DNA of 64,000 nt, taken from assembly GCF_023373525.1 (NCBI RefSeq), contig NZ_CP097218.1, positions 3,906,001-3,970,000 on the forward strand, read 5' to 3'. Source of the DNA: Brachybacterium kimchii. GTDB taxonomy: Bacteria > Actinomycetota > Actinomycetes > Actinomycetales > Dermabacteraceae. Position 1 is the stretch's first letter, and every line of letters begins with the position of its first letter. Positions 37,380 through 55,115 of this stretch are shown piece after piece. Under the pieces are notes generated by a model. That model searched no databases. It was not told the DNA's origin and worked only from the letters and a program-made list of their open reading frames with translations. The translations under genes were made by a program, and so were the position numbers.

Positions 37380-37418
37380 GGAGGGATGACAGAGCGGCCG
37401 AATGTGGTGGTCTTGAAA
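37380..37418. repeat. attR core (39 bp)
   Basis: Exact copy of 1177-1215. Here it continues without a break into the chromosomal 3' half of tRNA-Ser. The core ends exactly at the last base of the anticodon loop. Just left (37211-37379) is phage DNA without a visible gene, including the attP arm. Confidence 0.93.
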
Positions 37419-37631: not shown

Positions 37632-38513
37632 TCAGTGCAGCGCACCGTCCGTGCGCACCTTGCCGAACAGGTACGACCAGCCGCCGTCGCCGCCGATCGC
37701 GGTGCCGTACCACAGGGTCCATTCCGGATCCGTGGCGCCGTTGGTGAGGGTCCAGCCGGAGATGCCGTCCCCGCCGTCGACGATCTTCACGTGCTTGATC
37801 GTCGTCTCGAAGGCGCCGTCGTCCTCCTCGGCGTAGCCCATGGAGACCGCGTTCCAGAGCGCCTGCTCCGCGTTGTCCTGGGTGACCAGCGCGGGCGAGT
37901 CGACCTGCACCAAGTCCCAGGCGAAGTCGGTGTGCTCCGGCAGGCGGATCGACCAGTGCTTCGTGCCGAGCACGTGCAGCAGGATCCCGGGATTCTCCGG
38001 ATCGGTGCCGAGCACGTAGTGGGCCTCGGCCATGAGCTCCGAGTTGTCGGAGCCCGTGAACAGGATCTCGACGGGATCGCCGCCGACGGAGATGCCCGAG
38101 CTCGCCGACGGCGTGTATGTGGGGCCGCTCCCGTCGTCGTCGCCGTAGGCGCGGAAGTTGACGATGCCGTCGGCCTCCTCGAGCTCCTTCTTCGTGAGGT
38201 CCACGGGCGCGTGGCCGTACAGCGTCGTGAAGCTCGCGATGTAGCCCTGGTCCTCGGTGGGAAGGGGCTCGAAGTACACCGTGTCCTCCCACGACTCCGG
38301 GAGCTCGAGCTCCCCGGTCTCACTCGCCGGAGTCGCGCCGGCGGTCCCCGCGGCCTGTGCGGAGGTCGCGAGGCCTCCCAGGCCCACGAGGCCCCCGGTC
38401 GCCACGATCGCGGAGCGCAGGAACGTGCCTCGCGTGACGACGGATGGCGTGCCGTCGTGGGCTGCGGTGCTGGATCGCGTGCTGCTGGCACGCGTGCTGC
38501 GGATGGTGGTCAT
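37632..38513 (-). CDS. Exported protein, five-member tandem family, copy 1
   Basis: 293 aa from ATG 38513 (GAGGAG 9 bases upstream). Signal-like N-terminus TRGTFLRSAIVATGGLVGLGG then TSAQAAG, a plausible AxA cleavage site. Family signatures: QGYIASFTTLYGHAP, HVLGTKHWSIRLP, DFAWDLVQVDSPALV and C-terminal GGWSYLFGKVR. Unknown family; similar to the next four genes at about the same positions. Own promoter-like block at 38581-38619. Probable secreted or wall-associated protein, with function unknown. Confidence 0.78.
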   Translation of the reverse strand: MTTIRSTRASSTRSSTAAHDGTPSVVTRGTFLRSAIVATGGLVGLGGLATSAQAAGTAGATPASETGELELPESWEDTVYFEPLPTEDQGYIASFTTLYGHAPVDLTKKELEEADGIVNFRAYGDDDGSGPTYTPSASSGISVGGDPVEILFTGSDNSELMAEAHYVLGTDPENPGILLHVLGTKHWSIRLPEHTDFAWDLVQVDSPALVTQDNAEQALWNAVSMGYAEEDDGAFETTIKHVKIVDGGDGISGWTLTNGATDPEWTLWYGTAIGGDGGWSYLFGKVRTDGALH

Positions 38514-38580
38514 CGAGAACCACTCCTCGGTCTCGGACTCCGGTGCGGCGGACCCTCCGTCCCGGAGACCCGCCCTGTGC

Positions 38581-38619
38581 ATGACTCAGGCTTTACCAAC
38601 GCTTGACCGGACGTCAAGG
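38581..38619 (-). promoter_or_regulatory. Shared promoter block, copy 1
   Basis: On the - strand TTGACG, 16 bases, TAAAGC, the weakest of four similar blocks; also an inverted repeat CTTGAC...GTCAAG. Starts 68 bases before the gene start at 38513, the same distance as in copy 2. Confidence 0.6.
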
Positions 38620-38729
38620 GGTGAATCGGGGCCACAGGGTAAACCTGCAGGCCATAGGTAAGAAATTTGTTTTGCAATCGCCGTGGCAAAACGAGCTTAC
38701 TTCTGCGTAAGGAGACGCCACGGGGAAGA

Positions 38730-38786
38730 GTCGTGCCCGGCTCCTCCCTCTCGCCCCCCCGACGGTGGGCAGGAACCGGGCACGAC
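38730..38786 (-). terminator. Hairpin downstream of copy 2
   Basis: GTCGTGCCCGG at 38730 and CCGGGCACGAC at 38776: 11-bp perfect stem around a 35-base loop, after the stop at 38835. Acts for the leftward copy-2 transcript. The rest of 38620-38729 is the AT-richer leader of copy 1. Confidence 0.55.
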
Positions 38787-38834
38787 GATCATGGGCCGGG
38801 CGCGTGGGCGCCTCGGCGGTCTGCGGCGGGGCCG

Positions 38835-39677
38835 TCAGCTCTTCGGCAGCTCGGCGACCAGGTAGGTCCAGCCGCCGTCCGCGCGCACCGCGGCGCCGAA
38901 CCACCGGCGCGTCACGCGGGTGCCGTGCGTCGGGAAGCGGACGCTCCCCACGATGTGCCGACCGCCGTCGAGCACGGTCGCGCCGCTCGCGTGCGCGGGG
39001 TTCGGGCCGTCCTCGCCGAAGCTGAAGCCGACGCCCTGCTCCAGCACCTCGCGGACGTCGGCCGTCGTCACCTTCGACAGCGACGCGGCCGGGGGAGTGC
39101 CCCAGACGATCGGCGTCCCCTTCGGCAGCACGAGCGAGGTCGCGCTCTTGCCGAGCACGTGCAGCAGCAGCGCCGGCGACTTCGGGTCCGCGGAGCGCAA
39201 CAGGTGCACCTCGGCCGTGAACTTCCTGCCCTTGTTCCCGACGAAGCGGATCCGCACGGGGCCGCCGTCGAGGCGGACGGTGCCGGCGACGTGCGGGGTG
39301 AAGCGCTCCTTCTGCTCGTACTCGCCGTAGGGCAGGAAGTTCGAGATGCCATCCGCCTGTGCGACCTTCTTCGCGCTCAGCGACGTGAGGGGGCCCGCCC
39401 CGTACAGCGCCGTCCAGCTCGAGATGTATCCGTCGTGCGTGGAGGGCAGGGGTGCGGTGAAGGCGGTGCTCTTCCAGCTCGTGGGCAGCTGGACGGGCGA
39501 TGCGGCCTTCGCCGGTGCGGCGGATGCGCCCGCGCCCGACGTGGCGGCCTCGGCGTCCGTCGCGCCGAGCGGTCCGCTGCCGAGTGCGGTGGCGCCCAGG
39601 ACGCCGCCTGCGAGAGCGAGGCCCGAGCGGAGGAAGGTGCCGCGGGAGATGGCGCGGGTGCGGAGTTCGGTGGGCAT
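38835..39677 (-). CDS. Exported protein, five-member tandem family, copy 2
   Basis: 280 aa from ATG 39677 (an ATG at 39683 is also in frame; GAGAGG precedes both). N-terminus SRGTFLRSGLALAGGVLG, then TDAEAATS, a likely cleavage site. Family signatures: DGYISSWTALYGAGP, LHVLGKSATSLVLPKGTP and GGWTYLVAELP. Closest to copy 3 in the central part. No lipobox and no cell-wall anchor. Function unknown. Confidence 0.78.
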   Translation of the reverse strand: MPTELRTRAISRGTFLRSGLALAGGVLGATALGSGPLGATDAEAATSGAGASAAPAKAASPVQLPTSWKSTAFTAPLPSTHDGYISSWTALYGAGPLTSLSAKKVAQADGISNFLPYGEYEQKERFTPHVAGTVRLDGGPVRIRFVGNKGRKFTAEVHLLRSADPKSPALLLHVLGKSATSLVLPKGTPIVWGTPPAASLSKVTTADVREVLEQGVGFSFGEDGPNPAHASGATVLDGGRHIVGSVRFPTHGTRVTRRWFGAAVRADGGWTYLVAELPKS

Positions 39678-39744
39678 GACCATGCCTCTCATGTCGTGGG
39701 GGATGGAATCATCGGCCGGGCCGGGTGCGACCCGCGTCGTGAAC

Positions 39745-39780
39745 ATGACCAACCCTTTACTAGGGCTTGACTCTCGTCAA
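39745..39780 (-). promoter_or_regulatory. Shared promoter block, copy 2
   Basis: On the - strand TTGACG, 15 bases, TAAAGG, then GTTGGTCAT. Contains the palindrome TTGAC-GAGA-GTCAA. Begins 68 bases before the gene start. Upstream, GCTCGGCGTGTCGC (39838-39851, + strand) is shared with copies 3 and 5. Confidence 0.65.
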
Positions 39781-39837
39781 CCCGCCTCGCGGTGGAATCC
39801 GCGTCGTTGCAGGTCAGAGATACAAAATTAGTTCCAT

Positions 39838-39851
39838 GCTCGGCGTGTCGC
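39838..39851. promoter_or_regulatory. Shared upstream motif, copy 2
   Basis: GCTCGGCGTGTCGC, identical to 41151-41164 and 43201-43214. Sits about 60 bases upstream of the promoter block of its gene. Possible activator/repressor site or remnant of duplication. Confidence 0.6.
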
Positions 39852-39933
39852 ATCGAACAGACTTGCGCAGGAACGTGTCTGCTGCGTGGCTCGCCCGAGG
39901 GTCCGGGGTGTCCCACGACGGGTGCCGCAGCGG

Positions 39934-39971
39934 AGCGCGCGGGCGCCCGAGTGGTCGGGTGCCCGCGCGCT
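39934..39971 (-). terminator. Hairpin downstream of copy 3
   Basis: AGCGCGCGGGCGCCCGA, loop GTGG, then TCGGGTGCCCGCGCGCT: 17-bp stem with one mismatch, 46 bases after the copy-3 stop. Confidence 0.75.
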
Positions 39972-40016
39972 CGAGGGAGGGTCGGCGCGTGCGGGATGAC
40001 GCGCTGGGGCGACGCC

Positions 40017-40979
40017 TCAGCTCTCGTCGGGCAGCTGCGCGCAGAGGTAGAACCATCCGCCGTCGCCGCCGACCGCCGCGCCGTACCAGTCGTGGTGCAC
40101 ACGGTCCCCGCTCACCGGATGGCTCACGCCGCCGGTGATGTGCTGGCCGCCGTCCAGGACCTGCACGTGGTCCATGCGGGCCGGGTTGTCGCCGTCGGGG
40201 TGGAAGCTCATCGAGACGCCGTCGGCGAGCGCGCCGCGCGCATCCTTCTTCGACACCAGTCCGGGGGAGTCCTTCTGGATGAGATCGCCGACGATCGGGG
40301 TCCCCTTCGGCAGAGCGATCGACCAGCCCGAGGAGCCGAGCACGTGCAGCAGCAGGGCGCGGGCTCCGGGGTTCGCGGTGCGCACCAGCTGGACCTCGGC
40401 CCAGACCTCGGAGCCGGCATCGCCGAGGAGGAGAAGGACCACCGGGCCTCCGTCCAGACGCGCCGGTCCGGAGACATGCGGCGTGAAGCCCTCGGACTGG
40501 CTGCCGGTGCCCTGCGACATGAAGTTCGCGATGCCGTCGGCCCCGGCGATGCGCTTCGCGCTGACCGACTTCACGGGGCCGTCGATGTAGAGCGTCGTGA
40601 AGCACGCGATGTAGCCGTCCTGCTCGGAGGGGAGGTCCTGGGTGAGGACGGTGTCCTTCCATTCCTCCGGAAGGGCGGGTCGGGCGGCCGGCGCCAGGGG
40701 CGCGGGTCCGACGGGGGCTGCTCCCGCGTCGGACCCGATCGCATGGGTGCCGACGGCGCCGCTGCCGACGATCGCGGCGCCCACGGCTCCGGCGCCGAGG
40801 GCGAGGCCCGAGCGCAGGAGCGAGCTGCGGGGAATGCTGGGGGCGCCATGGACGCCGGTCGAGGCGGGAGGTGCATTCGAGGCGAGGGGCGCGGACGGAT
40901 CGTGCTGCGTGGGATGCGTGCGCGGGGCGGGGTCGGTGGGCTCTGTGGGCTCGAGGGGCCGAGTGGGCTGGGTGGACAT
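40017..40979 (-). CDS. Exported protein, five-member tandem family, copy 3
   Basis: 320 aa, GAGAGG 7 bases before ATG 40979. Longest member because of a Pro/Thr-rich N-terminal extension (about 45 aa) before PRSSLLRSGLALGAGAVG. Signatures: DGYIACFTTLYIDGP, HVLGSSGWSIALPKGTP, KDSPGLVSKKDARGAL and GGWFYLCAQLP. Last part has one extra Cys, found in neither copy 1 nor 2. Function unknown. Confidence 0.78.
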   Translation of the reverse strand: MSTQPTRPLEPTEPTDPAPRTHPTQHDPSAPLASNAPPASTGVHGAPSIPRSSLLRSGLALGAGAVGAAIVGSGAVGTHAIGSDAGAAPVGPAPLAPAARPALPEEWKDTVLTQDLPSEQDGYIACFTTLYIDGPVKSVSAKRIAGADGIANFMSQGTGSQSEGFTPHVSGPARLDGGPVVLLLLGDAGSEVWAEVQLVRTANPGARALLLHVLGSSGWSIALPKGTPIVGDLIQKDSPGLVSKKDARGALADGVSMSFHPDGDNPARMDHVQVLDGGQHITGGVSHPVSGDRVHHDWYGAAVGGDGGWFYLCAQLPDES

Positions 40980-41057
40980 GGTGGGACCTCTCCGGGAATG
41001 GGGAAGAGCGTCGGCCGCGCCCGCCGGGTGGTCCGACGCCGCGCTGTGCCATGAACG

Positions 41058-41092
41058 TGACCAACCCTTTACCTGTGCTTTACTGCCGTCAA
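41058..41092 (-). promoter_or_regulatory. Shared promoter block, copy 3
   Basis: On the - strand TTGACG, 15 bases, TAAAGG, then GTTGGTCA. Lies 79 bases before the copy-3 start. The inner palindrome is lost here (GTAAAG instead of GTCAA), which suggests the -35/-10-like parts are what is conserved. Confidence 0.62.
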
Positions 41093-41150
41093 CCCCTCAA
41101 TGTGGGCTCGAGTCGGTTCTCGCAGGCCAGAGGTGCGAAATGAGTTCCAC

Positions 41151-41164
41151 GCTCGGCGTGTCGC
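41151..41164. promoter_or_regulatory. Shared upstream motif, copy 3
   Basis: GCTCGGCGTGTCGC, as in copies 2 and 5; flanking GTTCCA and ATCGAA are also kept in copies 2 and 3, a sign of recent duplication of the whole intergenic region. Confidence 0.6.
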
Positions 41165-41194
41165 ATCGAAGTGACTTACATAAGCGCCGCGACA

Positions 41195-41226
41195 CGGGCG
41201 CCCCTCCCGCAGGGAAGGGGCGCCCG
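41195..41226 (-). terminator. Hairpin downstream of copies 4-5
   Basis: CGGGCGCCCCT and AGGGGCGCCCG around a 10-base loop; 11-bp perfect stem after the copy-4 stop. Confidence 0.75.
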
Positions 41227-41280
41227 GTCGGTCTTGCGCGGCGCCGGGGTGTCGCGCGATGCGGGGTGCCGGCGGGGTCC

Positions 41281-42144
41281 TCAGCCCTTCGGGACCATGC
41301 CGAACAGGTAGCTCCAGCCGTCCTCGCCCGGGTGTGCGGCGCCAGGGTCGGCCGGGAGCGCGACGCCGAGCCACGTGGTCCACGGACCGCTCGTGCCGTA
41401 GCGGGCCTCGCCCCGGATGTGCAGGCCGTCGTCGAAGACCTTCACGGAGCGCGTCCTGGTGGGGTTCGTCCCCTCCTCGGCGAAGCTGAAGCCGTATGCG
41501 TTCTCGAGCATCTCCGTCGCCGCCGCGGTGGAGACGCCCTTCGGCGACTTCGCGTCCAGGAATCTGGTCCAGCACAGGCGGGCGCCGGCCGGGTACTCGA
41601 ACGGCTCATGGCCGCGCGGCGTCATGGTGAGCAGGACGCCGCTGGAGCGGTCGTTCGCGGTGCGCGTCAGGCGTGCGCTGCCGACGCGCTCCGACCCCTG
41701 GTCGCCGACGAAGCGCACGGCCGTGGCCTCATCGAGGCCGATGCCCTCGGCGACCTTCGGGGTGAACGTCTCGCCGCTCTCGTTGTCCGCGGGCTCGAAC
41801 ATCCGGATGCTCATGATGCCGGCGAGCTCCTTCGCGCTGAGCGAGGTCACCCGGCCCGTCCTCCCCTCGACGTTCTCGTTCTCCGGGTAGAGGTCCTCGA
41901 AGCTCGCGATGTAGCCGTCCGCGCGATCGTGCAGGGCGTCGCCGAACACGCTGCCCTCGAAGAACGGGGGCACGGGGGAGGAATCCCCGGCCGCTGATGC
42001 GCTCGCGAGTCCTCCGGATCGGCTGCCGGTGGCGGTCGCCAGGCCGGCCGTGCCGATCGCGCCGCCGGCCGCGAGGGCCGCGCCGCGCAGGAAGGCGCCC
42101 CGGCTGATGGTGTGGTGGGTGGTGGTGCTCCGGGTGATGGACAT
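41281..42144 (-). CDS. Exported protein, five-member tandem family, copy 4
   Basis: 287 aa, AAGGAG 9 bases before ATG 42144. N-terminus ISRGAFLRGAALAAGGAIGTAG, then SASAAGD. Most divergent centre: DGYIASFEDLYPENENVEGR, VLLTMTPRGHEPFEYP, KSPKGVSTAAATEMLENAYG and DGWSYLFGMVP. No promoter block in the 97 bases to copy 5, so probably transcribed from it. Function unknown. Confidence 0.75.
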   Translation of the reverse strand: MSITRSTTTHHTISRGAFLRGAALAAGGAIGTAGLATATGSRSGGLASASAAGDSSPVPPFFEGSVFGDALHDRADGYIASFEDLYPENENVEGRTGRVTSLSAKELAGIMSIRMFEPADNESGETFTPKVAEGIGLDEATAVRFVGDQGSERVGSARLTRTANDRSSGVLLTMTPRGHEPFEYPAGARLCWTRFLDAKSPKGVSTAAATEMLENAYGFSFAEEGTNPTRTRSVKVFDDGLHIRGEARYGTSGPWTTWLGVALPADPGAAHPGEDGWSYLFGMVPKG

Positions 42145-42241
42145 GGTCCTCAGCTCCTTGAACTGGTCCGAATGCGTGTCGCCGGATGGTGTGGGAGGTG
42201 GGGAAGGTCGACGGGCTGCCGTCGTGGCGCCCGCCCGGGGA

Positions 42242-43042
42242 TCACTTGCCGGGCAGCCTGCTGAACAGGTAGCTCCAGCCGGATGCCGTCGGCAGCGCGA
42301 TGCCGTAGTAGGGCTGGAAGCCCAGGCCGATGTCCGGGATCCAGCGCGCGTAGCCGGTGATGTGCACGCCGTCGTCGAAGACCTTGACGTCCTTCGTGTC
42401 GACCTGCGGCTCCCCGTTCGTCTGGTAGCACCAGGCGAGGGCGTTCCCGAGCTGCTCGCGGGCGTCCTTGGTCGAGACCGAGGCGGGATCGTCGATCCGC
42501 GTCGTGCTCCATGCCAGGTGCGCCTTCTGCGGGAGGTAGAGGGGCGTGACGTGGGGGACGTCGATCTTCGTGATCACGCCGTGGGCCTTCGGGTTCGCCG
42601 TGCGCACGAGGTACGCCTCGGCGTCGACCCGCGTGCCCTTGTCCCCGTTGAGGCGCACGAGGATCGACCCCCCGTCGAGGTCGAGCGATCCCGTGGACTT
42701 CGCCGTGAACATCTCGCCCTCCTTCGCGCCGCGGGGGAGGGTGCCGGCGAACTGGGCCTCGACCTCCTTCGCGCTCAGGGTGGTGGGCGTGCCCTCCTGG
42801 TAGAGGACGCTCAGGCCGTCGATGTAGACCTTCTTGCCGTTCCCGAGCCCCGTGCCGAACACGGTCTGGTCCCAGCTCGCGGGAACCGTGAAGTCGCCGT
42901 CGGCCTTCGCGGGCGACGTCCCGGCGGGGGCGGCGCCCGCTGCCGTGGCCGCGCCGATCCCGGCGATGCCGCCGGCTGCCGCGAGTGCCCCGCGGAGGAA
43001 GGATCCGCGACTGATGTCGTGCTGCGTGGTGTCGGTGGACAA
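42242..43042 (-). CDS. Exported protein, five-member tandem family, copy 5
   Basis: 266 aa. TTG start at 43042 preferred: GAGGAG is 9 bases upstream, the same spacing as in copies 1 and 4; a TTG at 43051 abuts the ribosome site. N-terminus ISRGSFLRGALAAAGGIAG. Signatures: VYIDGLSVLYQEGT, LDLDGGSILVRLNGDKGT, VTPLYLPQKAHLAWSTTRI, VFDDGVHITGYARW and GWSYLFSRLP. Own promoter block at 43106-43143. Function unknown. Confidence 0.76.
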   Translation of the reverse strand: MSTDTTQHDISRGSFLRGALAAAGGIAGIGAATAAGAAPAGTSPAKADGDFTVPASWDQTVFGTGLGNGKKVYIDGLSVLYQEGTPTTLSAKEVEAQFAGTLPRGAKEGEMFTAKSTGSLDLDGGSILVRLNGDKGTRVDAEAYLVRTANPKAHGVITKIDVPHVTPLYLPQKAHLAWSTTRIDDPASVSTKDAREQLGNALAWCYQTNGEPQVDTKDVKVFDDGVHITGYARWIPDIGLGFQPYYGIALPTASGWSYLFSRLPGK

Positions 43043-43105
43043 GGAACTCAACTCCTCGTTCTGGTCCGGTGTCGACGGGAGCGATCCGCCCGTGCCGCCG
43101 CTTCC

Positions 43106-43257: not shown

Positions 43258-46200
43258 TCAGCGCAGCGGCGCAGGGGCCAGCAGCTCGATCTGCGCGAGA
43301 GCGATGGGGGAGCGCGCGCCCGTGAGCACCAGCCGGAAGCGCACGGGACCCGAGAGGGGCGAACCGTCGGCGCCTCGCACGTCGGGCAGGGCGAAGGGGC
43401 GGGTCTGTCGGCGCCACCGGAACGTCTCGCCCGAGCGCTCGTCGACGACCCGCCAGGCCGCGGACGCTCGAGCGTCCCCGTCTCCCGGAGCATCCGCCGA
43501 CGCCTCCTCGGTTCCGGGTTTCTCGTCGTCCTCGCACACCTCGAGGCGCCAGGAGGACGGATCCTGACCCTCGTGGGCACCGGAGGTGAGTGTGAGGAAG
43601 CGCGGGAAGGGGCGACCCGGCGACGGAGCCGTCAGCGGAAGGTCGATGATGATCTCGCCGTCGACGGGCTCGAGCACGGTCTCCGTGCGGGAGTCGTCGT
43701 CCAGGAGCGGATCCTCCGGGTCCCGGGCGAGCAGGTCGACGAGAGGGCGTGGGGCCTCGCCGGGCGGCGTCGGGGAGTCGGGCGGGGCATCGGACGGTCC
43801 CGGCTCGGCGCCCAGCTGCACGCGGATCTCGCCGCGCAGGTCGCCGTGGCGCAGGAAGGAGGTCGAGCGCAGCGTGCCCTCGCGCCGCACCGCCTGGATG
43901 TACGGATGGTCCATCGCCTGGTCCTCGACGCGGATCGTGAACTCCTCGCCGCCCAGGGGCCGCACGTGCGCGACGTCGAACAGCGGTGCGACCAGGTGGT
44001 ACACGTCGGTGCCGAGCTGCAGCGGGTAGAGCCCGAGCGCCGTCAGCAGCCACCAGGCGCTCATCTCGCCGTTGTCCTCGTCGCCCGGGTACCCCTGCCC
44101 GATCTGCTCCCCGGTGAACAGGCGCCGGTGCACCTCCCGCACCACCTCCTGCGCGCGATGGGGCGCGCCGGCGTGGTGGAACAGGAACGGGATGTGATGG
44201 CTGGGCTGGTTGGACATGCCGAACTGACCCATGCGCACCGCGCGCGCCTCGTGCATCTCGTGGATGACACCGCCGTAGGTGCCGGGGCGTCGGCCCGTCT
44301 CGGGCGTCGCGAAGAACTCCTCGAGCTTCGCGCGGAGCTGCTCACGGCCCCCGTAGAGCGCGGCCAGACCCGCGCCGTCGTGCGGCACGTGGAAGGCGAA
44401 GTTCCAGCCGTCGGTCTCCGTGAAGTCGCCGCCCCAGTCGCGAGGGTCGAACTGCTCGGGGCTCTGCGCGAAGGCGCCGTCGGACCGTCGGCCCTGGAAG
44501 AAGCCGATCGCCGGATCGAACAGCAGCGCGTAGCCGGCGCTGCGCGCCTCGAGGTAATCCGCTTCCTCACGCAGGGCGCGGCGCCGCTGCTCGGACAGCC
44601 CGTGCGACCCGGAGTCCGCCGAGGCCTCGGAGATCTCGGGGGCCTCGGCGAGGAGTCTCGCCTGGCGGGCGAGACCCTGGTCGTTGATGTGGGCCTCGAG
44701 CGTCCAGGACACCGACTCGGGGGTGTCGGTGTCGACGTACCCGGTGAACATCGCCCGCTCCGCCCCCTTGCGGCCCACCAGCGGATCCGGGGAGGCGACG
44801 GTCGCATTGCGCAGGCCCGCCTCGTAGGTCGCGAGCGGATCGCGCAGAGCGACGCCCTTGACCTGCGCGTCGGCGAAGGCGACGTCCGAGCTCGTGCCGG
44901 TCATGCAGTCCGCATAGCCGGGGGAGGACCAGCGCGGGATCCAGCCGCCCTCGCGGTAGTGCTGGACGAAGCCGTCGACGAGCCGCGGCGCGAGCTGCGG
45001 GTACAGCAGCGCAAAAGCCGGCCAGCAGGTGCGGTAGGTGTCCCAGAAACCATGATTGACGAACAGCTCACCGGCGATCACCTGGGCGTTCGTGCGCGTG
45101 TCGGTGACCTCGCCGCGCGTGGGCGCCACCGGTGAGGCGTGCATAGGCCGGGGATCGCGGGCCGAGCCCGTGTTCTCGTGCTGGGAGTTCGGGTAGAGGT
45201 TCAGGCGGTAGAGGCTCCCGTACAGGGTGCGGCGCTGCGGGGCCGTCGCGCCCTCGACGCCGATCACCCCGAGGCGCTCGGTCCATGCGGCATGGGCCGC
45301 GCGCTGGATCGTGCGCAGGTCGCGGCCCGCGAGCTCGAGGTCGAGGGTGTGCCGGGCCTGCTCGACGCCGATGAAGCTGGTCGCCAGGCGCACGGTCACC
45401 GTGCGGACGTCGTCGGCGAAGGTCGCGACGCGCGCGCTCGCGAAGTCCCCGCCGGCGGGCCCGACGTGCTCGGGCAGCGGGTCGAGGGTTCCGGCGACGA
45501 ACATCCGCGAGCGTCCCGCGGAGCGCTCCTCGCCGTCGGTGCCGTTGTCGACCCAGCCCGCGAAGGTCCCGTCGAACACCGCGCCCGCGAGATCGAGGCG
45601 CGTGCTCTCGTCGGCCCCCTCGAGGAGCAGGCCGCGGCGGCGGCCCGCCTCGGGGAAGGTCACCTCGAGCACGGCGCCGTGGTCGCTCGGGGCGAGGCGC
45701 AGCCGCGTGCCGTCCTCGAGGGCGACCGCGTAGAGGTCGGGCCGGGCGGTCTCGTCCTCGTGGGTGAAGGCGCGGGAGCGCCCGGCGGGAGTCGCGTCGG
45801 AACCCGTCAGCGGCATCATGATCAGCTGATTGCGGTCGCCCATCCACGGGCTCGGCTGGTGCGAGACGGCGAGCCCCTGCAGCCGCGGACGGTTCTGCGC
45901 ATCGTTCGCGCGCTGGTACTGGTACGGCCATCGCAGGGAGCGTGCGTCGGTCATCGGTGTGAAGAACGCGAAGCCGTTCGGCCAGGCCGTGATCGGCAGG
46001 TTGTTCCCGCGCGAGAAGTCGCCCGAGGCGTTCGTGCCGCGGCGGGTGTCCACCCAGGCCACGGGATCGTCGACGGGCGGGTCGGTGGGGATCGGCTCGA
46101 TGCGCGGCGGGTCGAACCAGGCGGTGAGGGCGGCCCCGGCCCCGGCCCCGGCGGGCGGATCGGCGACCACCAGCACGCCCACGATCGTGCGGCCGACGGC

Positions 46201-46590
46201 GGGGGCGAGATCGACCTGCACGTCGTTCCACTGGTCGGCGTACAGGATCTTCGCCGCGCCCTGCGCGGCGGCGTCGATCGGGGTCCCGTACTGATCGGGT
46301 GCGCCGAGCTCGGAGAGGCGGGTGCCGTCGGAGAGCTCCAGGTCCACCGCCACATGCGTCGCGCCCCAGGTGAGGGCGTCGTCGAGCTCCGGATACACGA
46401 AGACGTGCAGGCGCTCGCCGGGCGCGACCACGTGGAGCACGGGGTCGAGGGCGCGGTCGGTGAACGGGAAGGGGGCCTCGCTGCGCTCGCCGGCGGGGAA
46501 CTGCGCACGCACCGCCTCGGGGGCGAGGAGACCTGCGGCATCGCGACTGGTGGGGCCGCCGACGGGCCCGCCTCCGGGGGTGAGGATCAT
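43258..46590 (-). CDS. GH92 alpha-mannosidase
   Basis: 1110 aa. GH92 hallmarks: RGTNASGDFSRGNNLPI and TAWPNGFAFFTP (N-terminal domain), NHGFWDTYRTCWPAFALLYP (about 515-535), GWIPRWSSPGYADCMTG, then GEMSAWWLLTALGLYPL (about 845-862). These calcium-dependent exo-enzymes remove alpha-linked mannose from glycans. C-terminal beta-domains with Asp/Pro-rich linkers follow. No signal peptide is visible, so it is likely cytoplasmic or its start is misjudged. Leftward, ahead of the exported tandem family. Confidence 0.92.
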   Translation of the reverse strand: MILTPGGGPVGGPTSRDAAGLLAPEAVRAQFPAGERSEAPFPFTDRALDPVLHVVAPGERLHVFVYPELDDALTWGATHVAVDLELSDGTRLSELGAPDQYGTPIDAAAQGAAKILYADQWNDVQVDLAPAVGRTIVGVLVVADPPAGAGAGAALTAWFDPPRIEPIPTDPPVDDPVAWVDTRRGTNASGDFSRGNNLPITAWPNGFAFFTPMTDARSLRWPYQYQRANDAQNRPRLQGLAVSHQPSPWMGDRNQLIMMPLTGSDATPAGRSRAFTHEDETARPDLYAVALEDGTRLRLAPSDHGAVLEVTFPEAGRRRGLLLEGADESTRLDLAGAVFDGTFAGWVDNGTDGEERSAGRSRMFVAGTLDPLPEHVGPAGGDFASARVATFADDVRTVTVRLATSFIGVEQARHTLDLELAGRDLRTIQRAAHAAWTERLGVIGVEGATAPQRRTLYGSLYRLNLYPNSQHENTGSARDPRPMHASPVAPTRGEVTDTRTNAQVIAGELFVNHGFWDTYRTCWPAFALLYPQLAPRLVDGFVQHYREGGWIPRWSSPGYADCMTGTSSDVAFADAQVKGVALRDPLATYEAGLRNATVASPDPLVGRKGAERAMFTGYVDTDTPESVSWTLEAHINDQGLARQARLLAEAPEISEASADSGSHGLSEQRRRALREEADYLEARSAGYALLFDPAIGFFQGRRSDGAFAQSPEQFDPRDWGGDFTETDGWNFAFHVPHDGAGLAALYGGREQLRAKLEEFFATPETGRRPGTYGGVIHEMHEARAVRMGQFGMSNQPSHHIPFLFHHAGAPHRAQEVVREVHRRLFTGEQIGQGYPGDEDNGEMSAWWLLTALGLYPLQLGTDVYHLVAPLFDVAHVRPLGGEEFTIRVEDQAMDHPYIQAVRREGTLRSTSFLRHGDLRGEIRVQLGAEPGPSDAPPDSPTPPGEAPRPLVDLLARDPEDPLLDDDSRTETVLEPVDGEIIIDLPLTAPSPGRPFPRFLTLTSGAHEGQDPSSWRLEVCEDDEKPGTEEASADAPGDGDARASAAWRVVDERSGETFRWRRQTRPFALPDVRGADGSPLSGPVRFRLVLTGARSPIALAQIELLAPAPLR

Positions 46591-50819: not shown

Positions 50820-52094
50820 TCAGGGGCGGGCGGGCGTGAGCAGGGCGGCGAGCTCCTCGACCATCGCGGGCTGCCACCAGGCCCAGTCGTGGCCTCCGCG
50901 ATGCATGCGCACGGGGATCGTGGCGCCGGTCCCGTCGGACACGGCGTCCGCGAGCTCGCGCGCCGCCTCGCCCATCGTCCCCTCGAAGTGTCCGGCGTGG
51001 AGGCGGATGCGCACGCTCCCGGGGGCCGTGCTGCGGAGTGCTGCGCGCAGGGGAGCTGCGAGTGCCAGGTGGGGATAGCGCCAGAGCGAGACCGACTGCG
51101 CGATGGCGGCGCCGATCCTGTGCGGTGCCCGAGCGAGGGCGAAGAGCGAGGTCAGACCCCCGAAGCTCGATCCTGTGACCACGGTGCGCCGCGGATCGGG
51201 CGTGGGGCGCAGGCGCGGCACCAGGGTGTCCGCGATCCATGCGGCCTGTCCGCCGGGCACGCCCAGGTCCCGGGCGCGCTCGGGCCACGCGTCGATGAAC
51301 ACGGCGCGCAGCGGCGGCAGCTCGCCGGCCCGGACGGCCTCGGCGAGCACGCCCGGGGTGTCCAGGCGATCGAGATGCGCCTCCCCGTCGGTGACGACGA
51401 GCAGGGGCAGGACCGACGGCGGGAGCGCGCCGTCCGCGCCCTCCTCGCCGTCCTCGCCCTCCTCGCCGTTCCCTCTGTCGACGCCGATCGTGCACCAGCG
51501 CGTGCGCGGCTCGCCCGCGGCCGTCGCCAGCTCGTGCACGGGGAGGCTGGAGGGAGCGTGCGAGTCGCCGACCCGGTCGCGGACCAGGTCCAGGACCAGG
51601 GAGCCGGAAGGCCGCGCCTGTGGTCGCGACGGCGCCCCGGTCCGCTTCCCCTTGAGGCCGTCGCTCCACCACGGCGGCTCGGCCGATGCTCCGTCGTCCC
51701 CCTGGTGCTCGAGGAAGGAGATCGTGGCGCAGAGGTCCCCGGGGACGGAGAGCACGCCCGTGAACCATCCGTCCCCCTGGGAAATGAGGTCGAGGCCGTC
51801 GGGGGGATCGGGGTGCCACCAGCCGTTGATCTGCGCGGCCACCGCCCGTGCGCCGGGCGCTCGGTGCTGCAGGCGGACGATCGCGCGATCGTCCTCGCGT
51901 GCGAGGACCTCGACGGCCGCGCCGCCGGGCGCGGACGCCGCGGGATGCTGCTCGGCCCGCACGACGCGCACGCGCTGGACGGGGGCGTCCGTCGGCCGGG
52001 GGAGCGGCTCCCACTCGGGCCCGGACAGCAGGGCCGCGAGTTCGGAGCGCTGGGCGTCGCCGGCGGGACGGAGCGCCGGCTCCTGCGCGTTCAC
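50820..52094 (-). CDS. Ferric-siderophore esterase (Fes/IroE-like)
   Basis: 424 aa, GTG overlapping the ATPase stop. N-terminal beta domain with NGWWHPDPPDGLDLI, then alpha/beta hydrolase core: nucleophile GSSFGG (about 320), and RGGHDWAWW with catalytic His near the end. Enterobactin-esterase-type hydrolases release iron from imported siderophore in the cytoplasm. Fits the operon of an iron-complex ABC importer. An acidic insertion (GEEGEDGEEGADG) is unusual. Confidence 0.85.
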   Translation of the reverse strand: MNAQEPALRPAGDAQRSELAALLSGPEWEPLPRPTDAPVQRVRVVRAEQHPAASAPGGAAVEVLAREDDRAIVRLQHRAPGARAVAAQINGWWHPDPPDGLDLISQGDGWFTGVLSVPGDLCATISFLEHQGDDGASAEPPWWSDGLKGKRTGAPSRPQARPSGSLVLDLVRDRVGDSHAPSSLPVHELATAAGEPRTRWCTIGVDRGNGEEGEDGEEGADGALPPSVLPLLVVTDGEAHLDRLDTPGVLAEAVRAGELPPLRAVFIDAWPERARDLGVPGGQAAWIADTLVPRLRPTPDPRRTVVTGSSFGGLTSLFALARAPHRIGAAIAQSVSLWRYPHLALAAPLRAALRSTAPGSVRIRLHAGHFEGTMGEAARELADAVSDGTGATIPVRMHRGGHDWAWWQPAMVEELAALLTPARP

Positions 52095-52903
52095 AGCGGC
52101 ACCACCAGGGGCCGGCCGGAGGTCGGATGCTCGAGCACAGCGACCTCGTGGCGGTAGACCTCGCGGATCCGGTCGGGGGTGAGCACGTCCTCGGGCGGTC
52201 CGAGCGCGACCAGGCGCCCGCCGTCGAACATGGCGATGCGGTCGCTGCAGCGCGCGGCGAGGGTGAGGTCGTGGAGGACCACGAGCACGCAGCGGCCCTC
52301 CTGCGCGAGCTCGCGCGCCCGGGCCATGAGCACCTCCTGGTGATGGAGGTCCAGAGCGGCCGTCGGCTCGTCGAGCAGCACCACCTGGGCGTCCTGGGCG
52401 AGGACGCGGGCGAACACGGTCCGCGCGAGCTCGCCGCCCGAGAGCGTCGTGACGTCCCGCCCGGCGAGGGCGTCGACGTCCGCCTCGCGCAGGCAGCGCT
52501 CGATGAGGGCGTCGTCATCCGGGCCGATGGGATGCGGGGCGCGGCCCATCGCCGCGGCCTCGCGCACGGTGAAGGAGAAGGCCTGGCTGTGGTGCTGTGT
52601 CATCACCGAACGGCGCCGGGCCAGGGCCTTGGCCGGCCAGTCCGCCGTCGGCGTGCCGTCCAGGAGCACCTGGCCGCTCGTCGGCCGCTGATCGCCCGAG
52701 AGCAGGGAGAGGAGCGTCGACTTCCCGGCGCCGTTGGGGCCGACGAGCGCCACGAGCTCGCCTCCGCTCGCCGAGAACTCGACGTCCCGCAGCAGCACCG
52801 CGCCCCCGATGGCGAAGCCGGCCTGCTCGACGCGGATCCACGGCTCGGTCGCGGGAGCACCGGCCGTCGAGGCACCGGCGTGCGTCCCCGTCTGCGCGCT
52901 CAC
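52091..52903 (-). CDS. hmuV: Heme/siderophore ABC transporter ATPase (HmuV-like)
   Basis: 270 aa, GTG overlapping the permease stop. Walker A GPNGAGKSTL (about residue 55), signature LSGGELART, Walker B VVLLDEPTAALDLHHQ with its Glu. HmuV-type features: HTVREAAAMGRAPHP-like region. Energises uptake through the FecCD permease next door. Confidence 0.9.
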   Translation of the reverse strand: MSAQTGTHAGASTAGAPATEPWIRVEQAGFAIGGAVLLRDVEFSASGGELVALVGPNGAGKSTLLSLLSGDQRPTSGQVLLDGTPTADWPAKALARRRSVMTQHHSQAFSFTVREAAAMGRAPHPIGPDDDALIERCLREADVDALAGRDVTTLSGGELARTVFARVLAQDAQVVLLDEPTAALDLHHQEVLMARARELAQEGRCVLVVLHDLTLAARCSDRIAMFDGGRLVALGPPEDVLTPDRIREVYRHEVAVLEHPTSGRPLVVPL

Positions 52904-53988
52904 AGCCGCACCGTCCGCGAGCGCAGCACGAGCATGAGGAAGAACGGGGCGCCCATGATCGCCGTGAACAGGCCGATCGGCACCTCGGCGGGAGGAGCGA
53001 CGGTGCGCGAGAGCGTGTCCGCGACGACGATCAGCAGCGCGCCGATCACGGCCGACATCGGCAGCACCCCGCGGTGCGCGGGGCCGCAGATGAGGCGCAC
53101 GATGTGCGGGACGACGAGGCCGATGAAGCCGATCGTGCCCGCGAAGGCGACGCTCGTGCCGGTCAGCAGGGCCGTCGTGCCGATGACGATCTTCCGGGTC
53201 GTGGACACGTCCAGACCCAGATGGTGGGCCTGACGGTCGCCGAGCGTGAGCAGGTCCAGGCGTCGCGAGAGCAGGATCATCACCACCACGCCGACGAGGA
53301 TCACGGGCGTGCCGATCGCGAGCTTCATCCAGTCCAGATCGCCCAGCGAGCCCATCTGCCAGAACACCACGGTCTGCAGATCGTCGTCGTCGGCCGCGAA
53401 GGTGAGGAACCCGGTGACGGCCGCGAAGGCGGAGCCGATCGCGATGCCCACGAGGAGCAGCCGCGCGGTGCCCGAGTCCATGCCCGGGCGGGCGAGCGCG
53501 TAGATGAGGGTCGTGGCGAGGATGTCGCCCGCGAAGGCCGCAGCGGGCACCACCCAGGCGACCGCCGCACCGGTCAGCGGAGGCAGCAGCACGATCGCGG
53601 CGACCGCGCCCGTGGAGGCGCCGCCGCTGACGCCGATGATGCCGGGATCGGCCAGCGGGTTGCGGAACAGGCTCTGCAGCGCCGCACCCGAGACCGCGAG
53701 CGCCGCCCCGGAGAGCGCCCCGAACAGCACGCGCGGCATCCGCAGGTCCATCACCACGGTGGTCTCGAGCGGCGGGCGCGCGGCGCCCTGCCCGAGGATC
53801 TCGTGCCAGACGACGCCGAGGACCGTGCTCGGACTGAGCTGGATGGGGCCCGTCCCGATCGAGACGACGATCGCGACCAGCAGCACCGCGCCGCCGATCG
53901 GGAGGCCGATCGCGAGCGGCAGGCGCCGGGTCCGCTCGCGCGCCGCGCGGCGCGGGGCGGACCCGGCGGTGTCCTCGGCGGCGGTCAC
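52900..53988 (-). CDS. hmuU: FecCD-family permease (HmuU-like)
   Basis: 362 aa from GTG 53988 (GTGA overlap). About ten membrane segments; family signatures RMPRVLFGALSGAALAVSGA, LQSLFRNPLADPGIIGVSGG and GFIGLVVPHIVRLICGP. Pairs with the HmuV-like ATPase and the binding lipoprotein to import iron complexes. Confidence 0.92.
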   Translation of the reverse strand: MTAAEDTAGSAPRRAARERTRRLPLAIGLPIGGAVLLVAIVVSIGTGPIQLSPSTVLGVVWHEILGQGAARPPLETTVVMDLRMPRVLFGALSGAALAVSGAALQSLFRNPLADPGIIGVSGGASTGAVAAIVLLPPLTGAAVAWVVPAAAFAGDILATTLIYALARPGMDSGTARLLLVGIAIGSAFAAVTGFLTFAADDDDLQTVVFWQMGSLGDLDWMKLAIGTPVILVGVVVMILLSRRLDLLTLGDRQAHHLGLDVSTTRKIVIGTTALLTGTSVAFAGTIGFIGLVVPHIVRLICGPAHRGVLPMSAVIGALLIVVADTLSRTVAPPAEVPIGLFTAIMGAPFFLMLVLRSRTVRL

Positions 53989-55115
53989 TTCGCGACGGCG
54001 GCGAGGGCCTTCACCAGCGCGATCGCACCGGCGCCGACGCCCACGCCGCTGACCTTGATCTGCTCGCTGGGCATGAGGAAGAACGTGTTCGAGGTGCCCG
54101 CGGGGGTCTGCGCGAGGGTGGGGAAGGCGGAGAGGAAGCCCTCGAGCCCGCCCCACTCCTCGAGATCGCCGTCGCCCGTGAGGATGACGTCGGGCTTCGT
54201 GTCCAGCAGGCCCTCGTCGCTGTACTTCACGGAGTAGCCGCGCAGGCCCTCCTCGACGCCGACGCTCGTCGCGCCCGCGGCCTCGATGATGTCTGCGGCG
54301 GCCGTGCCGGTGCCGACCACGGCGTTCGCGCCGCCCGCGCCGCTCGAGGTCACCGCGAGGATGCGCAGGCCGTCGATGCCGGTGCCCTTCGCGTCGGACG
54401 CGGCCTGGTCGAGCTGGTCCTCGACGGTGCTCGCGAGCTCCTCGCCCGCGTCCTTCGCCCCCACGTACTCGGCGACGGCGCGGATCTTGTCGGCGATGGG
54501 CTGCTGGTCGTCGACCACGACGGCGTCCACGCCGGCTTCCCGGAACTGGGCCGCGGGCTTGCCGTGGCGCTTGACGTTGTTGCCGATGAAGAGTGTCCCC
54601 TTGACGCTGAGCAGGCCCTCGACGCCGGTCTTCTGGCTGAACTCGTAGTGCTCGGGCGCATCGAGGGCGGCCTGGGCGACAGAGTTCGTGGGGGCCGCAT
54701 AGATGTTCTTCTGCAGGCCCAGCGCCGCGAGGATGTCGGCGACGTCCTCGCCGCCGACGATGATCTTCGAGATGTCCTTGACCTCGACCTTCTCGCCCGT
54801 GCCGTCGGTGACCGTCACCGGCAGCTCCGGGGTCGCCGACGCCGAGGGCAGATCCGTGCCCTCCACCCAGGTCCAGCCCTCGGGCAGGTCCGACGGAGCG
54901 CCCTGCGCGCCGCCGGCCGCGGAGCCGGAGCCGCCGTCGGAGGAGCCGCCGTCCGAGGCCGCGTCCTCGGCGGACTGGCTGCCCGCACCGCATGCGGTGA
55001 GCGCGGCGAGGACCGCGGCCGACGGGGCGATCCCGAGCAGGGAGCGCCGTGCGAGCGGACGACGGACGGAGGTCTCGGGGGAGGAGGTGCGGGGGAGCGG
55101 GCGCGACGAGGTCAC
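53985..55115 (-). CDS. hmuT: Heme/siderophore-binding lipoprotein (HmuT-like)
   Basis: 376 aa, GTG start with GAAGGAC upstream. Tat-type signal (ARRSLLGIAPSAAV) and lipobox LTAC (Cys42), so exported folded and lipid-anchored. Periplasmic-binding domain with QPIADKIRAVAEYVGAKDAG and VVGTGTAAADIIEAAGATSV; the GTGTAADIIEAAG motif is typical of heme binders. First gene of a four-gene operon. A siderophore ligand is also possible given the esterase. Confidence 0.88.
   Translation of the reverse strand: MTSSRPLPRTSSPETSVRRPLARRSLLGIAPSAAVLAALTACGAGSQSAEDAASDGGSSDGGSGSAAGGAQGAPSDLPEGWTWVEGTDLPSASATPELPVTVTDGTGEKVEVKDISKIIVGGEDVADILAALGLQKNIYAAPTNSVAQAALDAPEHYEFSQKTGVEGLLSVKGTLFIGNNVKRHGKPAAQFREAGVDAVVVDDQQPIADKIRAVAEYVGAKDAGEELASTVEDQLDQAASDAKGTGIDGLRILAVTSSGAGGANAVVGTGTAAADIIEAAGATSVGVEEGLRGYSVKYSDEGLLDTKPDVILTGDGDLEEWGGLEGFLSAFPTLAQTPAGTSNTFFLMPSEQIKVSGVGVGAGAIALVKALAAVAK

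Follow-up and report, generated by a model that had tools for sequence, protein, structure and literature searches.

A tandemly expanded, lineage-restricted family of exported proteins in Brachybacterium with a putative MtrA-type promoter element

Five adjacent genes of Brachybacterium kimchii encode members of a real, undescribed and lineage-restricted family of exported proteins that has undergone tandem expansion. The best explanation of the array, to which a probability of about 40% is given, is that in some Brachybacterium an envelope-protein family has expanded in tandem under an MtrA-type regulator, its products probably being released and, as is proposed, acting as binding modules in envelope homeostasis. 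New here are a contrast in cysteines and lipobox that goes with a Tat-like signal, a 17-bp promoter box, and a confidently predicted fold with no credible match in the PDB.

The array and its surroundings

Coordinates refer to the window, the 64,000-nt stretch of B. kimchii DNA that was analysed (the genome is of 4.35 Mb in two contigs), and ORF lengths are given from the longest possible start codons. Genomes of relatives are denoted by handles such as G029.

P1, 37632 to 38582, minus strand: exported protein, array copy, 316 aa; ORF, homology to the other four, orthologues in G029 and G017
P2, 38835 to 39752, minus strand: exported protein, array copy, 305 aa; ORF, homology, orthologues in G029 and G017
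P3, 40017 to 40979, minus strand: exported protein, array copy, 320 aa; ORF, homology, orthologue in G017, AlphaFold2 model of the mature part
P4, 41281 to 42144, minus strand: exported protein, array copy, 287 aa; ORF, homology, no orthologue among 29 tree rows
P5, 42242 to 43051, minus strand: exported protein, array copy, 269 aa, TTG or later start; ORF, homology, orthologue in G029

The original prediction described five leftward tandem genes with the same order of motifs, and both the ORFs and the alignment bear this out; the end of the array, placed there at 43042, lies here at 43051 through the choice of start codon alone (span 37632-43051, all five genes leftward). The motifs of P1-P5 align in order, with 29-38% identity to P1, and codon use is gene-like throughout, third-position GC being 0.90-0.96. 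When signal and linker were removed the mature parts alone were homologous in 10/10 pairs (E 2.9e-21 to 5.5e-75), with 214-234 residues aligned at 26-52% identity, and homology between P1-P5 therefore extends beyond the signal. To judge from these alignments the five are true homologues, old duplicates within a single family of exported proteins that have since diverged strongly, as had been proposed; an array with nothing alignable past the signal region, the outcome named as counting against that proposal, is not what was found. The genome encodes no full-length member besides P1-P5, and one further match in it is confined to the signal region. The true starts of P1 and P2 are probably at about 38513 and 39677, downstream of the longest starts, because the latter abut a conserved promoter box (see below).

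A probable prophage (1177-37418) ends beside the array. It is delimited by a 39-bp exact repeat at 1177-1215 and 37380-37418, the latter copy being the 5' part of a tRNA-Ser gene, and contains a tyrosine integrase gene (1251-2534). A prophage origin of the array was considered and rejected because in G029 and G017 too the array is flanked by this tRNA-Ser and by the same hydrolase gene. This hydrolase (cluster F9; GH92 by Pfam for the B. kimchii copy) adjoins the array in all four multi-copy genomes, and tRNA-Ser(TGA) lies on the other side in three of the four, being about 5 kb away in G035. In B. kimchii the right flank (43258-46590 and 50820-55115) carries the GH92 glycoside hydrolase, followed by genes for an esterase and for an ABC importer of FecCD type, its ATPase and its binding protein.

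Family identity and predicted fold

None of P1-P5 reaches the curated cut-off of any family in Pfam or NCBIfam, and in Pfam the same is true of all ten relatives searched (one from the array clade) and of all 14 relative domains. The family thus remains unrecognised in these profile databases, as it was in the original prediction, and no single characterised family in Pfam or NCBIfam takes in all five. No paper on the exported family was found among the literature matches listed, which falls short of proving that none exists.

Structure prediction, suggested with the original prediction, was run on P3 and on one relative and gave a confident fold with no credible PDB match. AlphaFold2 modelled the mature part of P3 with a mean pLDDT of 92.7 (29 sequences) and a cysteine-bearing relative with a mean pLDDT of 89.9 (14 sequences). 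By our reading of the secondary structure both models are two-lobed alpha/beta proteins in which each lobe is predicted to comprise a helix and antiparallel strands. Foldseek returned no match at E<=0.001 in the PDB for either model or in BFVD for the first, and a sequence search against solved structures gave two chance-level matches (E 0.14 and 0.21). An internal duplication of the two lobes was also considered; the order of elements is the same, and a profile comparison was non-significant (probability 0.7-2.0%), leaving it a suggestion only. Foldseek saw a weak resemblance to domains that bind ligands or only bind, namely DynU16, Cache and PAS sensors and a T6SS immunity protein, which speaks for secreted modules that would bind small ligands or inhibit proteins and have no part in envelope control. 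With TM-scores <0.3 and an rmsd near 15 A for the best match, and E >0.001 throughout, such modules seem improbable.

Distribution and history of the array

The host of these genes, Brachybacterium, belongs to the family Dermabacteraceae, and in the scans reported here the protein family was found almost only in Dermabacteraceae. A scan of 38 genomes of the genus at E<=0.001 gave a match in 25, some of them to the signal only; signal-only matches were excluded from family counts, and matches including the mature domain were present in 17/38 genomes, with G026 and G031 added by a broader profile. Across the order at least 19 of 396 genomes matched, comprising 16 of the genus, two from other genera of the family and one weak 51-position match outside it. 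Across the phylum a non-array profile matched at least one of 296 genomes, which among the matches listed is that of B. kimchii itself. Absence outside the lineage is provisional, because the order and phylum scans scored 7-10 candidates per genome.

Array-clade genes occur in five of the 38 genus genomes, and in a 29-row tree the 15 array-clade rows form one side of a branch with 100/100 support. B. kimchii has five copies, G029 three and a remnant, G017 three, G035 three and a frameshifted copy, and G013 one, so that copy number does differ among relatives, a point that the original prediction had left to be checked. The nearest named records in which the array is present are those of Brachybacterium halotolerans MASK1Z-5 and B. 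subflavum CFH 10395, with coordinates that agree with those in G029 and G017. Among the tree rows P1 and P2 are each matched by orthologues from two other species and P3 and P5 by one from a single other species, and P4 has none. Of seven comparisons between orthologues, six gave a dN/dS of 0.37-0.59, indicating fast change under purifying selection, while the seventh (W5-h5) gave 1.01 on too few changes; four paralogue pairs gave 0.70-1.21, too near saturation to be interpreted.

This history has features in common with that of diversifying contact or competition proteins, a role suggested in the original prediction, in which secreted variants facing phages, rivals or a host would be kept as a changing set. 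Copies have been born and lost in tandem, they are 26-52% identical to one another, and the ortholog dN/dS of the six comparisons (0.37-0.59) is rather high. However, no toxin, immunity or adhesion family was matched in Pfam or NCBIfam, there was no match in a phage collection (P3 as query) or a plasmid collection (P1 as query), and the promoter box described below is common to the array and to cell-wall genes. A surface, competition or contact role is therefore unsupported, and we regard it as an unlikely but conceivable account of the array, with perhaps one chance in five.

Non-array members of the family are present as one or two genes per genome, and their product is usually a lipoprotein. 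A 502-aa protein of G011 (L050 9214-10719) is a fusion of two copies of the domain. At L046-L050, L052, L053 and L055 the non-array gene is clustered with fatty-acid oxidation genes, and the same loci encode several membrane-anchored proteins that form one sequence group (F3) with no Pfam family.

Absence of cysteines and lipobox from the array clade, and the export signal

The clearest difference between the array clade and the rest of the family concerns cysteines and anchoring. Outside the array clade four cysteines, in two pairs, are invariant in 14/14 domains (13 proteins), whereas none of the four is present in any of the 15 array-clade rows, in all of which the corresponding columns are occupied by V, A, S, L, I, T or G. 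Stray cysteines occur elsewhere in six of these rows, P3 having two and five others one each. A lipobox could be recognised by eye in 11 of 13 non-array proteins and in none of the 15 multi-copy array signals.

All 15 multi-copy array signals carry the motif [STAP]R[GS]x[FL]LR, which is Tat-like with the second arginine absent. Paired arginines are found in none of these 15 and only in the single-copy G013 protein, the signal of which is SRRTALI. In the B. kimchii genome a whole-family profile picked up a signal of this kind in one unrelated protein (PRSSVLR), and a signal-only profile gave no further strong match. The presence of a signal on the array copies agrees with the earlier description of the products as exported, in so far as this can be predicted from their sequences. 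Twin arginines have been reported to be essential for efficient Tat transport, even lysine being poorly tolerated (PMC7317946), although a single arginine can serve when the signal is made more hydrophobic (PMC5539426).

The array proteins are probably released past the membrane rather than lipid-anchored, since the lipobox and the conserved cysteines are absent and the signal is Tat-like, and they appear to descend from a membrane-anchored ancestor. The loss of cysteines may have accompanied export in the folded state. A stronger version of this idea is that a disulfide-bonded Sec lipoprotein switched export route, becoming a protein without those pairs that is folded and exported via Tat with a single-arginine S-R-[GS]-x-[FL]-L-R signal, and was then duplicated into a set dosed by MtrA. 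We consider this a long shot; if true it would define a naturally occurring class of Tat signals that lack twin arginines. The single-arginine array signals are in any case a natural test of whether Tat accepts them.

A 17-bp promoter box shared with cell-wall genes

Upstream of most array genes lies a 17-bp direct repeat with the core GTMAAG-n5-GTAAAG.

Box of P1, 38591 to 38607, minus strand: GTCAAG-n5-GTAAAG, exact match
Box of P2, 39755 to 39771, minus strand: GTCAAG-n5-GTAAAG, exact match
Box of P3, 41067 to 41083, minus strand: GTAAAG-n5-GTAAAG, exact match, with an extra half-site GTCACG 11 bp on
Box of P5, 43116 to 43132, minus strand: GTCACG-n5-GCAAAG, degenerate with two mismatches, found by site scan

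No box was found upstream of P4, which lies 97 bases behind P5 without its own promoter box. In an alignment of the regions upstream of P1, P2, P3 and P5 the box windows are 67-74% identical, against 38-52% in most other windows; higher values outside the box were seen in another conserved block, some 60 bp farther upstream (57-67%), in a window with few filled positions (67%, 24 pairs) and in the window over the start codon (79%, 66 pairs). When the 800 bases preceding the mature domain were scanned for 30 family genes, the exact core was found for 19 (9/16 array-clade genes and 10/14 others), the array-clade genes without it being P4 and six others. A longer, 34-base consensus scored above shuffles for 14 of the 16 array-clade genes (one narrowly, 22 vs 20); it was rejected as a family-wide box, the 14 other relatives scoring 16-21 against 18-19 for shuffles, and it is the shorter 17-bp core that is shared.

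The 38 genus genomes contain 57 exact sites, distributed over 32 of them, and a single site for the reversed pattern. B. kimchii has four, three of them in the array. Of the 47 sites that were classified, 28 precede one small protein, nine precede family genes and ten precede or adjoin others; the remaining ten were placed by coordinates, nine before family genes and one with a 17-mer identical to two of the small-protein sites. The small protein (L088 930-1490 and orthologues at 28 sites) has no Pfam family and a conserved LLRRC[TA][AS]LA.[RM]AR core, and with its box it sits in most Brachybacterium genomes behind a gene pair that we take to be mltG-aroE. The ten other sites comprise three at genes for L,D-transpeptidases with peptidoglycan-binding domains (by Pfam; two of the three boxes are on the strand opposite to the gene), three at genes of phosphoesterase or 5'-nucleotidase type (two of these checked in Pfam), two at sodium:alanine symporters (one checked in Pfam), one beside what is presumably smpB and one without assignment. 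The protein beside smpB, near the box site (L134 481-1191), has a sub-threshold match to DUF4333 (E 0.003, 18.2 bits of 27). The candidate regulatory element links the family to peptidoglycan enzymes across the genus.

MtrA as a candidate regulator

The MtrAB system exerts osmotic and cell-wall control in other actinobacteria, and it is proposed as the regulator of the array because most of the genes keep a box with the layout of an MtrA site. A GTnA-type direct repeat lies upstream of P1, P2 and P3 (exact) and P5 (degenerate), but not P4, and from the sequence of these putative sites MtrA may be the regulator of the array boxes. B. kimchii has an MtrA orthologue (NF040689, 379 bits against a cut-off of 300). 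A relaxed form of the site matches five times in the window, four of the matches being in three array boxes, and its reversed pattern not at all. An Rpf-type transglycosylase gene (PF06737) of B. kimchii has GTCACG-n5-GTAACG about 195 bp upstream, and rpf2 is a described MtrA target in Corynebacterium glutamicum (PMC3353115). In Streptomyces mtrA is bound by its own product (PMC13189361); no relaxed site was found within 1.5 kb of B. kimchii mtrA. Four exact sites in the genome is a small number if the regulator is a global one, the half-site GTMAAG/GTAAAG departs from the GTnAC core of the literature, and about half of the 57 box sites belong to one small protein, all of which tells against the preferred explanation.

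The NCBIfam profile finds nine full-length MtrA-like regulators in the genome, one of them over the MtrA cut-off, and three box sites precede 5'-nucleotidase or phosphoesterase-type genes. The box may accordingly belong to another OmpR/PhoB-type regulator, such as a phosphate regulator, the array then being part of a response to nutrient starvation. But the published MtrA repeats of C. glutamicum and Streptomyces, which were the repeats compared, share the period of the box and come closer to it in their GTnA core, and another regulator is judged a minority prospect, on a par with the contact role.

On the preferred explanation the ancestral form would have been a tethered lipoprotein whose two-lobed alpha/beta domain bore two cysteine pairs. 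The lineage leading to the array clade would then have lost its lipobox and all four conserved cysteines and acquired a Tat-like signal, after which most array-clade genes would have been duplicated. Through the promoter element of most of these genes MtrAB would set the dose of the array proteins, which may act as soluble binding modules in envelope homeostasis by binding an envelope component. It is because of the promoter element that envelope homeostasis is preferred to a contact role, and this reading, although the best supported, leans on that element. The family itself has a confidently predicted fold, and its two forms are cleanly distinct: one is anchored and has paired cysteines, and the other, that of the array, has neither anchor nor cysteine pairs.

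Comparison with known systems

DynU16 (PDB 6v04, START-like) came first in both Foldseek searches of the PDB (probability 0.89 and 0.93) and is likewise a two-lobed alpha/beta protein. However, a TM-score of 0.27-0.29, an rmsd of about 15 A and 12% identity amount to no real superposition.

DUF4333 (PF14230), an exported actinobacterial domain, resembles a single lobe in having a helix followed by strands and a C...G...C pair, and its profile matches each lobe in register but weakly (profile-profile probability 10.5% and 1.7%). The present family differs in having two lobes, and its array clade lacks the cysteines. Membership of DUF4333 was rejected, hmmscan finding no member at E<=1 (cut-off 27 bits) and the profile-profile probability being 10.5% at best.

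The array signals share with Tat signals the [STAP]R..[FL]LR pattern and a Gly/Ala-rich core, but have Gly or Ser in place of the second arginine in 15/15 multi-copy signals.

The MtrA site is given as GtnAcC-n5-GTnAcn in Streptomyces (PMC13189361) and as (A/G)TAACAAT-ttn-(A/G)TAACAAT in C. glutamicum (PMC3353115). Although the array box has AAG after GTn rather than the ACC/AC of these published sites, it has the same 11-bp period as the sites of the MtrAB-LpqB system in both organisms and, like that of Streptomyces, is a 17-bp direct repeat in which 5 bp separate two half-sites that both contain GTnA.
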